Made by a program: the position numbers and the translations under genes
In this document: in pieces, positions 59,180-64,000 of the stretch
Layout of the letters: each line of letters opens with the position of its first letter
Position numbering within the stretch: the first letter of the stretch is position 1
DNA from: Bacteroidia bacterium
GTDB taxonomy: Bacteria > Bacteroidota > Bacteroidia > UBA4408
Direction: 5' to 3'
DNA: 64,000 nucleotides
Assembly: GCA_020845635.1 (NCBI GenBank)
Contig: JADLFI010000048.1
Coordinates: 1-64,000, forward strand
Notes under the pieces: generated by a model
Told to the model about the DNA's origin: nothing
Databases searched by the model: none
The model's input: the letters and a program-made list of their open reading frames with translations, nothing else

Positions 59180-62100
59180 TTATTTTATAACAATCATACG
59201 CATTACCCATTCTCCGCTATCTGATTGTATTTTTAAGAAATACGTTCCCGGAGTAATTTGGGTATTAACTATCGTATTGTTTTCATGAATACTTACAGGC
59301 GCAGTAACTCTTGCACCCATAACCGATTCTATCCAATATTGGGCGTTTGGAGCTATTTCATTATTTTTCCAATTAATTACAAAACTACCGGTGTTAGGGT
59401 TAGGTAAAACCTTAAACTCATATTGCTTACTTTGCAGCCTTGGCACAAAATTAAGCGGATAAGCCAAATTAATATTTCCTGTTCCATTCGATACACTTCT
59501 GTTTCGCACAGCTCTTGTAGATTCGCATGGGGAACTTAAAACAGCCTGAATACGATATACGGTATTAACTCCGGCTACCGGATTAGTATCAATATACGGT
59601 CGAGAAATGGCATTAACCGTTGTTAAGTAACTCATATTATTATAATCGGGTCCCGAATAAACCAAGTAGGAAGTTATATTTTGCGATATTTCAACATACG
59701 GATTCCATGAAATTATTCGCTCATTACCAATACCCGGTAATACCTTTAAACCAATAGCCCGTACATAATCAGATAAGGCAGTTTCACCACCGCAGGTATC
59801 TATCATAGAAATTCGGTAACGATCTGTAACTACCGAAGCATCGGAGTTTACATCTATATACTCGCTTAACGAGTTATAGTCAACAGTATCTATCTGAACA
59901 TAGTTTGATGAGTTAAAAGGAATCTCTTTGTAAATAGCATAATAGGCAATATCCGTTGCAATAGGTTTTTCCCACACTAAAATATGTTGGTTGGTTGTAG
60001 TATCAACCGTTACCATACAAATGGTAGGTTTTGTAAGCATAGAGTTTGACACATCAAAAGGAGCCGACATTATTTCGCAGCCATCAGCAGTAATCCCTTT
60101 TACAAAGTAAGTTCCGGCTTGGTTTACTACTAAACTGTCGGCTAAAGTGCCATTAGTCCATTGGTATGAGTCAAATCCTCCCGAGGCTCTAAGAGTTACA
60201 TTTACGGGGGCACAATTTATTATAGTATCTGTTGTGCTTATAACGGGCGGAGCAATGGGTGTTAAATTAAAGCTTACAAAAACAGGATCTGATATTCGCG
60301 GGCAGCCGTTGGCATTAATAACATTAACCGTATAACTGCCACTTTCGGTAACTACAAGTTCACTATTATTTTCACCGTTCATGGCTACCCCATCTTTCAT
60401 CCATTGGTAATAATATTGAGATACAAATGGAGTAGTTAAAGTAACGCTTCCCCCCGCACATGCTTCGCGAAACATTGAACCATCAATAGCAGCAGGGTGA
60501 TTGCATACAATGCCGTCAGGACTATTACAAACCAAATAATCGGTGGTTATTGAAGAGGCGCAGCCCGTAACATTATTAACAGCCAATAAAGTTACATAAA
60601 ATGTATCGTTGTATTGGTAAGTATAATTTACATTAAAGTCATTGTTGTTAAACTGTGCACCATCGCCCGGAAACCAGGTAAAGGTATATAAATTCATATT
60701 AGGCGTGTTGTTGGTAAAAACCACATCCATGGGGCTTGAGTTTAACATTAAGCTGCTTACCGAAAAATCAAGGTTAAAATTACTATTATGTATGGTTATA
60801 GGGTAGGGCGTAGGCGAGCCTTCAATATAAGGTGTAGAGGAAACTACTCTTATTAAATATCCATTTCCGTCCGGAATATTGGTAGGTATAGTAGCATAAA
60901 TAATACCCGAACTCCCTGAATTTATCATACCTATATCAATAGGACTGCTAAAATCTCCGTTTTCGTCACTTAATTGAGCGGTAAAATAATTGCCTGAGGC
61001 AATAGAGCCTTGTACGTTTTGAGCGCTTTTTTGAAATTCTAAATTACCGTTGCTTAAATAATACCTTACCGGAATGGTACTACCCATACATATACTATAA
61101 TCACTAGTATCTATTTCTGTTGAAATGGTACCTAAAGCATCACAGTCGCTATAAAAGGTTCCCCAGGTATCTTTATTGGCAGCCCAATTATTATCCATAT
61201 ATGCCGGATCATCTACCGTAATACAATATAGGTTTTGATTGTTAACAGAACTGTAATAGCCTAAATTGGCATTATTCCCGTTTTTTATATTTAAACTACT
61301 CAAATTATTGTAGCTACAATCTAAACTATCTAATAAACTTAACGATTGCAATTCCAATGTTTCAATTTGATTATTAAAACAACTTAACAATCTTAGGTTA
61401 GGGTTATCAATAAATACAGCTTGGGCAAGTTGATTATTATAACAATAAACCACTTCCAAAGATGTACAGGTAGTATTGTCTAACATCGTTAAGTTATTAC
61501 CGCTGCAATTGATAAATACCAAACTTGAATCGTTTGTCAAAATTAAATCATTAAGTAAGTTATTCCAGCAATACAAACTGTCTAATTGCCCTAAATCTCC
61601 TGCATTGAGTGTGGTAAGTTGGTTATTATAGCAGCTTAAAAATTTTAACCCCGAAGTGCCTGTATTATTCAAATCTAAATTGGTCAATAAATTGTCATAA
61701 CATGCCAAGTCAACTAACGTACTTATCATAGAAACATCAAGCGAGGTTAATTCATTACTAAAACATGATAAATACTTTAACGAAATACAATTTGAAACAT
61801 TTAGCATGTTTATTTGATTGTTTGAGCAGTAAAGTGTTTGCAAGACATAGTTTTGACCTAAAGCCAGCGTAGTAATTGAATTATTAGAGCATGATAGTAT
61901 TTTTAATTGACTATGATTAGCAACATTGAGTGTGGTAATATTGTTGTCTCGGCAATATAGCTCCTCAAGATTCATAGCATTTGAAATATCTAAGCCACTT
62001 AACTGATTATTGCTGCATACCAATTTTACTAAACTCGACCCAAGTCCTGTTATACCGGTTAATTGATTGTTCTGACAGTACAAGTCAATAAGTTGTGGGT

Positions 62101-62413
62101 TGCCCGACAGGTCAAGAGTGCTTATTTGATTGTTATTGCAAATTAATTGAATAATATTCACAAAGGCCTCTATTCCTGTCATATCTTGTATATTCTGGTA
62201 GGAAACATTTATACCTCCATAAAAAGATTGAGCTTCGCTTACCTGAATTTCATTGTCCATGTTAATATTTAAAGCGGTATCGGCCAGTAATGCATTTTTA
62301 AAGTTTAGGTCCGGAATATTTACATTTTGGGCTTTTAAATACGAACCGCACAGAAGCATAATAAACAGCCCGAAACCGCTTACCCGTGCTAAAAAAGTAG
62401 AATTATTACTCAT
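59180..62413 (-). CDS. T9SS secreted leucine-rich-repeat protein with Cys ladder
   Basis: The 1077-residue protein has a signal peptide ending near LKAQ. Fourteen short LRRs (about residues 86-390, about 21-23 residues each) follow the consensus LxxLxCxxNxLxxL, so each repeat has Cys at the same place. An LRR cap follows (LYCITVDDPAYMDNNWAANK). Then come a beta domain, a PKD domain (FTWFPGDGAQFN, TYQYNDTFYVTLLAV), Ig-like modules and an FN3-like stretch, and the type A T9SS sorting domain with LPNPNTGSFVI and GTYFLKIQ. It is probably a secreted surface adhesin or binding protein; ligand unknown. Confidence 0.9.
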   Translation of the reverse strand: MSNNSTFLARVSGFGLFIMLLCGSYLKAQNVNIPDLNFKNALLADTALNINMDNEIQVSEAQSFYGGINVSYQNIQDMTGIEAFVNIIQLICNNNQISTLDLSGNPQLIDLYCQNNQLTGITGLGSSLVKLVCSNNQLSGLDISNAMNLEELYCRDNNITTLNVANHSQLKILSCSNNSITTLALGQNYVLQTLYCSNNQINMLNVSNCISLKYLSCFSNELTSLDVSMISTLVDLACYDNLLTNLDLNNTGTSGLKFLSCYNNQLTTLNAGDLGQLDSLYCWNNLLNDLILTNDSSLVFINCSGNNLTMLDNTTCTSLEVVYCYNNQLAQAVFIDNPNLRLLSCFNNQIETLELQSLSLLDSLDCSYNNLSSLNIKNGNNANLGYYSSVNNQNLYCITVDDPAYMDNNWAANKDTWGTFYSDCDALGTISTEIDTSDYSICMGSTIPVRYYLSNGNLEFQKSAQNVQGSIASGNYFTAQLSDENGDFSSPIDIGMINSGSSGIIYATIPTNIPDGNGYLIRVVSSTPYIEGSPTPYPITIHNSNFNLDFSVSSLMLNSSPMDVVFTNNTPNMNLYTFTWFPGDGAQFNNNDFNVNYTYQYNDTFYVTLLAVNNVTGCASSITTDYLVCNSPDGIVCNHPAAIDGSMFREACAGGSVTLTTPFVSQYYYQWMKDGVAMNGENNSELVVTESGSYTVNVINANGCPRISDPVFVSFNLTPIAPPVISTTDTIINCAPVNVTLRASGGFDSYQWTNGTLADSLVVNQAGTYFVKGITADGCEIMSAPFDVSNSMLTKPTICMVTVDTTTNQHILVWEKPIATDIAYYAIYKEIPFNSSNYVQIDTVDYNSLSEYIDVNSDASVVTDRYRISMIDTCGGETALSDYVRAIGLKVLPGIGNERIISWNPYVEISQNITSYLVYSGPDYNNMSYLTTVNAISRPYIDTNPVAGVNTVYRIQAVLSSPCESTRAVRNRSVSNGTGNINLAYPLNFVPRLQSKQYEFKVLPNPNTGSFVINWKNNEIAPNAQYWIESVMGARVTAPVSIHENNTIVNTQITPGTYFLKIQSDSGEWVMRMIVIK

Positions 62414-62824
62414 GTTGTCATATAAATAGGTTAATAATATAAAATTTACAAACTTGTTTTCCTGTTAATTGGTCATACCTTAAATTAATCTATCCTTATA
62501 AAATCCACATTCACATCTCATTTTTACGAATTAATGCTCAAAAATGTTTCATTTTTTGTTGTATTTTTTTATAAAATTTTAGGGAGTAAAAAATAGCGGA
62601 TAAACTTGTCCGTTTAGTTTTTTTGTTTACTTTTGCAAAGTTTAAATGTATGAGTTTATTATTTTAATGAATTAATAAGGGCTGTATTGACTACAAATAT
62701 AAATAAATATACAAAAAGTTGGTATAAATATAAAAATAGTTAGTTTATCACAATTTTAATGTTTTTATATAAGCTAATTAATACATTTGCATTTTAATAT
62801 TTAACTAAAAATAAAATTTAATTT
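62414..62824. other. 411-bp AT-rich divergent intergenic region
   Basis: No ORF or RNA gene is supported here. It contains the candidate promoter at 62606-62635 (TTG, 19-bp spacer, TACTTTTG) and a second -7-like TACATTTG at 62782-62789 about 36 bp before the ATG at 62825. Much of 62690-62770 is A/T repeats. I found no clear operator palindrome and no FNR/CRP-type TGTGA or TTGAT-N4-ATCAA site. Confidence 0.5.
62606..62635 (+). promoter_or_regulatory. Candidate promoter of the small membrane protein / hemoglobin / Ric operon
   Basis: TTG (62606-62608), a 19-bp spacer and TACTTTTG (62628-62635) fit the Bacteroidota pattern. It would leave a leader of about 180 nt; a nearer TACATTTG at 62782 could be used instead. 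Confidence 0.5.
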
Positions 62825-63139
62825 ATGACTGCTACAAATCAACATGAAACACAAGCTTTACCAAGTGGTAATTGGTATCAAAGACAAGTGGATGCTTTTG
62901 AAAGAGGTCGCCTGGCTTGGTTGTCAATTTACATTATTGCCCAAAGTTGTTGGGGCTCAGTAGCTTGTATGTATGCTTTACTGAACAACGCCAATGTGGC
63001 TCAATTAGCAATTTGTGCCGGAGTTTCTATGGCTTCTAATGCTATGTTTATTGCACAGGCACCGGCCAAGTGGTGTATTAATGTGTTTTATGTAAGTATA
63101 GTTTTAAATACCATTATTTTACTAATTAATATACTTTAA
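62825..63139 (+). CDS. Small three-helix membrane protein of unknown function
   Basis: I do not recognise a family. The 104-residue protein has a polar start (NWYQRQVDAFERGR) and three membrane helices at about 31-53, 57-78 and 84-103. Cys42, Cys48, Cys64 and Cys84 lie in or next to helices. It lies 24 bp before a truncated hemoglobin gene and is followed by ric in the same direction. Co-transcription and a role with nitric oxide, oxygen or iron-sulfur stress are inferred from position. Confidence 0.7.
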   Translation: MTATNQHETQALPSGNWYQRQVDAFERGRLAWLSIYIIAQSCWGSVACMYALLNNANVAQLAICAGVSMASNAMFIAQAPAKWCINVFYVSIVLNTIILLINIL

Positions 63140-63163
63140 TAGCCATAGTGCTGTTTGCGGGCA

Positions 63164-63553
63164 ATGGGTAACGATATTTTAGAAATTTCAGATATTAAAC
63201 TATTGGTTAATTCTTTTTACGAAAAAGTGCGTAAAGATAGTTTGTTAGCCCATATTTTTAATGATAGAATCCAAGATCGTTGGCCCTTGCACCTTCAAAA
63301 GATGTACCGTTTTTGGCAAACCGTTTTGCTTGACGAGCATACCTACGAAGGACGACCTTTTCCGCCCCATGCAAATTTACCGGTTGATAAAACTCATTTT
63401 AATCGTTGGTTAGAACTGTTTTACGAAACCATTGATGAAAATTTTGAAGGGGTTAAAGCCCAGGAAGCCAAATGGAGAGCCGAGCGCATGGCTGAGTTGT
63501 TTTACGAAAAAATTATTTATATTCAAAATAATCCAGGTAAGGTTATCTTATAA
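63164..63553 (+). CDS. Group III truncated hemoglobin
   Basis: The ATG at 63164 gives 129 residues; a TTG three codons upstream is less likely. Group III features are a FYEKVRKD start, HIFNDRIQDRWPLHLQKM, the FWQTVLL helix, and THFNRWLELF with the proximal His (about 78). Such proteins bind O2/NO and often sit with nitrosative-stress genes. It precedes ric by 54 bp. Confidence 0.9.
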   Translation: MGNDILEISDIKLLVNSFYEKVRKDSLLAHIFNDRIQDRWPLHLQKMYRFWQTVLLDEHTYEGRPFPPHANLPVDKTHFNRWLELFYETIDENFEGVKAQEAKWRAERMAELFYEKIIYIQNNPGKVIL

Positions 63554-63607
63554 ATAAGTTTGACAATACCCTTACTCTATTTGCAAATGATAAAAAAGTA
63601 AGACGAG

Positions 63608-64000
63608 ATGGAAATAACAAAAAACTCAATCATTGGCGACTTGGTTGCACAAGATTACAGAACAGCTTCGGTATTCAAAAAAAATAATATTGATTTTTGC
63701 TGCAACGGCAACCGCAGTATTCAAGAGGCCTGCACCACCAAAAATATTGATGTTGACCAATTAATTCACGATTTGGGAAACTCCACACAACAAGCTGCCA
63801 ACGGGGCAGTTGATTATAAAACATGGCCTTTAGATTTATTGGCCGATTATATTGAGAAAAAACATCATCGCTATGTGCGTGAAAAAATACAGGAAATTAC
63901 GCCTTATTTACGTAAAATAGCGCAAGTACACGGAGGGCATCATCCCGAACTTCACGATATTGAAAAATTATTTTCCGAATCGGCAGAGGAATTAACCAAC
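63608..64000 (+). CDS. ric: Iron-sulfur cluster repair di-iron protein Ric/ScdA/YtfE (3' end outside window)
   Basis: The ATG at 63608 opens a frame that runs to the window edge (131 codons). The N-terminal ScdA domain has SIIGDLVAQDYRTASVF and IDFCCNGN (adjacent Cys pair at about 31-32). The start of the hemerythrin-like domain follows with YIEKKHHRYV and a His-rich GGHHPELHDIE. Ric proteins repair iron-sulfur clusters damaged by NO or oxidants. It completes a likely nitrosative-stress operon with the hemoglobin. Confidence 0.93.
   Translation, partial: MEITKNSIIGDLVAQDYRTASVFKKNNIDFCCNGNRSIQEACTTKNIDVDQLIHDLGNSTQQAANGAVDYKTWPLDLLADYIEKKHHRYVREKIQEITPYLRKIAQVHGGHHPELHDIEKLFSESAEELTN

Follow-up and report, generated by a model that had tools for sequence, protein, structure and literature searches.

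A small membrane protein heads a truncated haemoglobin-Ric operon with a predicted Rrf2-family operator in a Bacteroidetes genome

Introduction

Flavohaemoglobin has a reductase domain that single-domain truncated haemoglobins do not possess, and it is, to our knowledge, still open how the latter return to the reduced state and at what place in the cell they work. Ctb of Campylobacter is under the control of NssR, a regulator of the Crp/Fnr type. NsrR is an NO-sensing repressor of the Rrf2 family with three Cys, whose targets include Ric (dnrN/ytfE) and a globin, according to the sections of PMC1274295 drawn on here. The same sections give the Legionella pair glbN-lpg2536, a cyanoglobin and a ferredoxin reductase, as an NsrR target (PMC1274295).

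Here we describe an operon in which a group III truncated haemoglobin (trHb3) and Ric are preceded by a small membrane protein, hereafter SMP, and by a predicted Rrf2-family operator. A literature search, with most subscription papers outside its scope, listed no paper on SMP or on such an Rrf2 regulon in Bacteroidetes.

Results

The window, by which we mean the whole stretch of 64,000 nt analysed here, covers positions 1-64000 of contig C48, which runs on to 70253 bp. Near its end lie the three genes of Table 1, with 24 bp between SMP and trHb3 and 54 bp between trHb3 and Ric. An earlier note, made from the letters of the window, had described three genes on one strand at these spacings (a 104-residue, three-helix protein with four Cys, a group III globin and Ric) and had suggested a look beyond position 64000 for further members; each of these descriptions is borne out, and the gene run does continue. 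Specifically, Ric is completed on the contig as a 237-aa protein (contig 63608-64321; L003 1609-2322) and is followed on the same strand, after 21 bp, by a 157-aa protein that reads by eye as a lipoprotein and has no match in Pfam or NCBIfam; a further 33 bp on lies the gene of an azurin of 169 aa (110.6 bits against a cut-off of 105.1). Downstream of azurin, after a larger gap, comes a DUF488 gene (Pfam). The globin passes Pfam Bac_globin (28.3 bits, cut-off 21), and its placement in group III follows from a PDB profile comparison in which the best match is 2ig3 (group III, E 2.7e-22) and the best group I chain reaches 1.4e-5, with no group II chain among the eight matches listed. Full-length Ric combines ScdA_N and Hemerythrin domains and passes TIGR03652 at 247.6 bits (cut-off 204.7). 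Divergent from the operon, at 59180-62413 on the minus strand, lies a gene whose 1077-aa product combines leucine-rich repeats and a Por_Secre_tail sorting domain; an Rfam search of 62400-63200 gave no match.

Table 1. Genes and predicted control elements at the end of the window
Feature	Position	Strand	Remarks
Predicted Rrf2 operator	62592-62617; core GGATAAACTTGTCC 62598-62611	+	promoter-trained matrix, 20.65 bits
Predicted Bacteroidetes-type promoter	62606-62635	+	TTG 62606-62608 inside operator, 19-bp spacer, TACTTTTG 62628-62635
SMP (small membrane protein), first gene of the operon	62825-63139	+	104 aa, 3 predicted helices, unnamed family
Group III truncated haemoglobin (trHb3)	63164-63553	+	129 aa from its ATG
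Ric (ScdA/YtfE-type di-iron Fe-S repair protein)	63608-64000	+	cut by window end

The first protein had struck the earlier note as unfamiliar, and it indeed falls below all Pfam and NCBIfam cut-offs. Its best Pfam match has an E of 0.14 (12.5 bits, cut-off 27), the best among 23 members of its family an E of 0.013 with none above cut-off; NCBIfam gives no match for the window protein, and the best E among the 23, 3.3e-4, is to an MFS efflux model and comes from a single member. A sequence search against solved structures likewise gave no useful lead, its best match being to a motility protein at E 0.51. The Cys residues lie at positions 42, 48, 64 and 84, and an AlphaFold model from three sequences places helices at 29-53, 58-76 and 81-103, with a short N-terminal helix at 17-27; the three-helix topology is thus supported by a model of modest quality (mean pLDDT 71.6, pTM 0.57). 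Comparison of the model with known structures was discarded as a lead, returning unrelated small helical bundles only: the SCIN complement inhibitors match with Z of 9.2 and 8.5 (rmsd 2.5 and 4.0 over 78 and 81 residues) at 7-8% identity, which may be no more than a common helix arrangement and neither points to a known fold nor speaks against one.

As judged from its recurrence across genomes, SMP is a genuine, unnamed family. A three-row profile matches it at 53 places, which fall in 48 of the 395 class genomes searched. In a phylum-wide sample, also of 395 genomes and partly overlapping the class sample, a 23-row profile has matches in 24, several SMP genomes being common to both. Its distribution is patchy, since only two of the nearest 40 genomes, the window's own included, have a match and three genomes of the same genus have none. 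Conservation was read from a 23-row alignment hand-picked from the family and biased to globin-linked members. Across the window protein and ten rows linked to an Rrf2 gene, C42, N72 and K82 are kept in 11 of 11, C64 and C84 in 10 each and C48 in 7, while C42 and N72 each persist in 20 of all 23 rows. No His column is common to four or more of the 23 rows, and there is hence no conserved His for haem binding. In a tree of the family the window SMP branches as the sister of a group of eight Rrf2-linked SMPs (support 98/82), with Rrf2-linked row L046 next outside and Rrf2-linked L058 unresolved; none of the 20 rows in the other large branch is linked to a globin.

Whether these genes keep company elsewhere was the test that the earlier note had set for its proposal, and they do. 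We compared 51 SMP neighbourhoods (the 53 places less L065, a partial match at a contig end, and L086, whose frame is broken by stops), with genes called by a longest-ORF rule under which starts and gaps may err by some bases. The next same-strand gene after SMP is trHb3 in 14 of the 51, spread over six families (f1, f20, f21, f33, f41 and f54); the gap is at most 4 nt in 11 of these 14, four being overlaps of -4. Two further runs have trHb3 four or five genes on (L038, L040), one has it convergent (L070), and Ric is present in several. Assuming a probability of 1/3000 per place, 14 adjacencies in 51 would arise by chance at ~3e-37, a figure that is far too extreme owing to the relatedness of the genomes; the association is nonetheless above chance on the gene orders compared. 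The phylum-wide sample agrees: trHb3 adjoins SMP at 13 of its 25 places, and family f54 accounts for 12 of these. Genome content agrees too, trHb3 occurring in 38 of 48 SMP genomes versus 158 of 347 others (Fisher p 1.1e-5, uncorrected for kinship). The coupling is incomplete: 10 of the 48 SMP genomes have no trHb3 match, and in 35 of the 51 loci, among them L047 with its Rrf2-SMP pair, the run contains no globin gene of the same direction. Furthermore, Rrf2-trHb3 runs that lack SMP exist at L096-L099, L109, L116 and L118 at least, and SMP is therefore not needed everywhere.

Two kinds of regulator gene stand before SMP. An Rrf2-family gene directly precedes it in 10 of the 51 loci, and a Crp/Fnr-type gene on the same strand in three (L066, L074, L082); in the phylum-wide sample, a Crp/Fnr-type gene lies upstream in 11 of the 13 adjacent places. 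In the fullest Rrf2 runs the order is Rrf2-SMP-trHb3 and a 144-aa membrane protein, after which comes either a Trp-dioxygenase-like protein, a methyltransferase or Ric. This second unnamed membrane protein (~144 aa, YLWIGFVxAISFMEAWLKF...) directly follows trHb3 in L039, L041, L042, L044 and L045 (gene +2), in L040 (gene +6) and, by eye, in L098, L116 and L118, and has no match in Pfam or NCBIfam. Trp-dioxygenase-like genes recur in trHb3 runs. Separately, the SMP relatives at L048, L050, L051, L052, L080, L084 and L087 lie near DoxX genes and mostly near Usp genes too, and L080 and L087 have a nearby response regulator fused (by eye) to a Crp-type domain, which suggests a stress role of their own for these members.

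Upstream of Rrf2 genes a palindrome resembling ATTTCGGATAAATTTGTCCGAAAT recurs. From 33 Rrf2-gene promoters we took 19 training sites, none from this genome, and built a matrix whose seed consensus was chosen after the window's upstream region was visible, so that the search was not blind. Within the window, the best score by far is the site upstream of SMP, the next best reaching 10.3 bits; the maximum was 17.1 bits in 60 Markov-simulated sequences of 64 kb, and across ten simulated 3-Mb genomes a single site reached 20.6 bits. Applied as well to 175 loci chosen around SMP, globin and Rrf2 genes (~1.05 Mb, overlaps counted), the matrix found 32 distinct sites of at least 15 bits, of which 28 lie beside an Rrf2 gene, the other four being the window site, two on contig C44 and one upstream of Ric in L093. 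The core GGAYAWNNTTRTCC has three exact matches in the genome (3.05 Mb), namely the window site and the two on C44, which is the chance level (mean 1.8, up to 4, in 20 simulated genomes), and with one mismatch there are 79 strand-matches against 181 for the reversed control, that is, below the control. Because core counts do not exceed chance, it is the score with the long matrix, the spacing to the promoter and the locations of the sites that carry the weight.

The spacing was assessed against a -33 element and TAnnTTTG, which we take as the Bacteroidetes-type promoter consensus. Of the 19 promoters used for training, 16 have the TTG of the -33 element within the operator, 17-21 bp before TAnnTTTG, and the window's spacer falls inside this range. 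Since the operator overlaps the -33 element, binding of a protein to it should close the promoter, which is how a repressor would act. A second operator-like site, outside the training set, lies between Rrf2 and SMP in 8 of the 10 Rrf2-SMP loci (12.7-17.7 bits); among 102 control regions upstream of other genes in the same loci two exceed 12.7 bits, one in L082 beside a divergent Rrf2 gene and one before gene -3 of L059 (14.6 bits). The window locus, for its part, has no adjacent Rrf2 gene and retains the operator; as its sequence reads, it has lost or never had an adjacent regulator gene, yet carries the predicted operator of that regulator. This upstream DNA switch looks like the target of a repressor that controls genes for defence against damage, which supports the earlier note's idea of a stress operon.

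The Rrf2-SMP intergenic regions of L039-L045, L047 and L058 share a strongly conserved A-rich element, approximately AAAAGATAAAAAGGTCTT, near the start codon. We rejected it as SMP-specific, as it is also present after Rrf2 before trHb3 in a run without SMP (L109) and between Rrf2 and a Ric fusion gene (L121). This occurrence points to a second regulon site, perhaps an asymmetric Rrf2 site or a leader element.

The genome's Rrf2 protein closest to the query used (56% identity) is encoded on C44, a contig of 12.9 kb, and both other exact core matches of the genome sit on this same contig. One precedes a tryptophanase-family gene, a tyrosine phenol-lyase gene (above cut-off), an acyl-CoA-ligase-like gene and the Rrf2 gene (L175 2178-7557). 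The other precedes a methyltransferase-Ric-hemerythrin run, which holds the second Ric gene of the genome; on its other side is a divergent hemerythrin gene with no TAnnTTTG at the right distance on its own strand. Given where the operators lie, the C44 units and the window operon form a predicted regulon. The three Rrf2 genes of this genome (on C44, C26 and C39) have no operator site directly upstream of themselves. In genome G013, too, a beta-eliminating lyase gene lies near Rrf2 (L121); together with the C44 lyases and the Trp-dioxygenase-like genes of the trHb3 runs, it hints at a connection of the regulon with aromatic amino acids.

The motif C-X6-C-X5-C-X2-H in the C44 protein suggests an Fe-S cluster. 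Both this copy and that of L042 pass the rrf2_super model (85.0 and 87.8 bits, cut-off 73.3) and fail the NCBI NsrR equivalog (23.1 and 41.8 bits against a cut-off of 182); the NCBIfam IscR score, 59 bits, is also below its cut-off, yet above the NsrR scores. The published NsrR palindrome GATGYAT-N5-ATRCATC, with up to three mismatches, has six matches in the window (chance mean 9.87), none near the operon. A third Rrf2 homologue (L127, G000:C39; 42% identity), with no operator upstream, stands behind a FeS_assembly_P gene and the gene of a membrane protein with a weak likeness to COX1 (28.9 bits, short of the cut-off of 34.8). Pfam bears out the labels of the hemerythrin, COX1, FixO, Usp, DUF488, FeS_assembly_P and leucine-rich-repeat genes, which had first been read by eye.

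Discussion

We propose that SMP, trHb3, Ric, the lipoprotein-like protein and azurin form one unit of an Rrf2-controlled regulon against nitrosative and Fe-S damage, with SMP as the membrane partner of trHb3, and give this reading as a whole about an even chance (roughly 0.5). Judged by the operator and by the genes behind it, the operon is most likely part of an Rrf2 regulon that responds to NO or to damaged Fe-S centres. In the proposed mechanism, the C44-encoded Rrf2 repressor, with its Fe-S-type motif, would bind the palindrome upstream of SMP and, lying over the -33 element, block transcription of the operon, until NO or similar chemistry damages its cluster and releases the operon. trHb3 would then convert or bind NO, and Ric would repair di-iron or Fe-S centres. 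SMP, as a presumed three-helix protein of the inner membrane with its N-terminus inside, would work with trHb3 at the membrane, most likely by docking the globin or supplying it with electrons where NO and O2 concentrate, a site at which the respiratory chain would need protection. The genes for SMP and trHb3 stand tightly together, often overlapping, under two different kinds of regulator, which speaks for a common task of their products, and SMP is probably a missing part of the defence against NO or a similar stress.

The main rivals to this proposal concern what SMP does and what the regulon answers. Perhaps SMP is instead a small accessory or protective subunit of a terminal oxidase, akin to the small subunits of bd or cbb3 oxidases, and is co-induced because NO poisons the oxidase, with no contact to the globin. 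The run at L040 (Rrf2-SMP-COX1 family protein-FixO/cytochrome c protein-...-trHb3) fits this idea, and for seven of the 51 SMPs a DoxX gene is no more than three genes away, mostly with Usp genes near and in two cases with a response regulator-Crp-type fusion. Single members also match Pfam FixP_N (0.071) and YbgE (0.13) weakly, which may be chance, these being single members of 23. Where neighbours were annotated, however, oxidase genes were recognised beside SMP at L040 only, against trHb3 in 16 of the 51 runs, and we regard the oxidase subunit as unlikely.

The nature of the signal is the second point of dispute. As trHb3, Ric and hemerythrins are the predicted targets, we infer that the regulon most likely senses NO or damage to Fe-S centres; against NO speak the failure of the Rrf2 protein at the NsrR model and an operator unlike the NsrR palindrome, and iron, Fe-S status or O2 could be sensed instead. 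A regulon of the IscR or RirA kind, answering iron or Fe-S starvation or O2, with trHb3, Ric and SMP serving Fe-S upkeep or O2 handling, would account for the higher IscR score (59 bits, versus 23 and 42 for NsrR, all below cut-off) and for the Cys spacing and His of the Rrf2 protein, which we take to resemble those of IscR. Ric and globin genes are nevertheless targets of the NO regulon in other bacteria, as set out in the sections of PMC1274295 used here. The Rrf2 paralogue at L127 does adjoin a FeS_assembly_P gene, but it has no operator upstream, and no suf or isc genes were recognised behind operators among the runs listed; iron or Fe-S starvation or O2 as the signal seems doubtful to us.

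That SMP is a membrane thiol or metal sensor tuning the regulator, and not an effector, is improbable despite its conserved Cys (C42 in 11 of 11, C64 and C84 in 10, of the window and Rrf2-linked rows) and its place directly after Rrf2 in 10 loci, one of them (L047) with no globin nearby, for typical Rrf2 sensors are not known to need a partner and C64 and C84 are not kept in the globin-coupled rows L055, L066, L074 and L082.

Returning to SMP as the membrane partner of trHb3, it is conceivable that SMP founds a whole family of dedicated membrane partners of truncated haemoglobins, making with them a two-part membrane enzyme that consumes NO, under a new class of Rrf2 operator; we consider this extension rather unlikely. 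As part of that extension, and just as speculative, the conserved polar and Cys stripes, one on each of the three helices (Q40/C42, C64/S68/N72 and C84/S91/N95), might form a site in mid-membrane at which NO is collected or from which quinol electrons are handed on to trHb3. Under the plainer proposal, SMP is already a concrete candidate for the missing partner of trHb3, standing directly before it in six families and under two kinds of regulator, and the predicted operator offers a testable handle on damage defence in these bacteria.

Among known systems, Ctb of Campylobacter jejuni, which we take to be the protein of PDB 2ig3, shares globin group III with the trHb3 described here. We know of no SMP accompanying Campylobacter Ctb, and our Crp/Fnr-SMP-trHb3 loci are an arrangement merely analogous to NssR-Ctb. 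The NsrR regulon, as far as the sections of PMC1274295 drawn on here describe it, is alike in its Rrf2 regulator with three Cys, its Ric and globin targets and its predicted operators before NO-stress genes. It differs in its operator, gATGyAT-N5-ATrCATc as against the GGATAAnnTTGTCC-like operator here, and in its globin, a flavohaemoglobin there and a single-domain trHb3 with an extra unnamed membrane protein here (PMC1274295); our regulator, moreover, falls short of the NsrR model cut-off. Finally, whereas the partner in Legionella glbN-lpg2536 is a predicted reductase and SMP is a small membrane protein with no known cofactor site, the two loci are alike in joining a single-domain globin to a second gene, proposed in the same sections to help it oxidise NO (PMC1274295).
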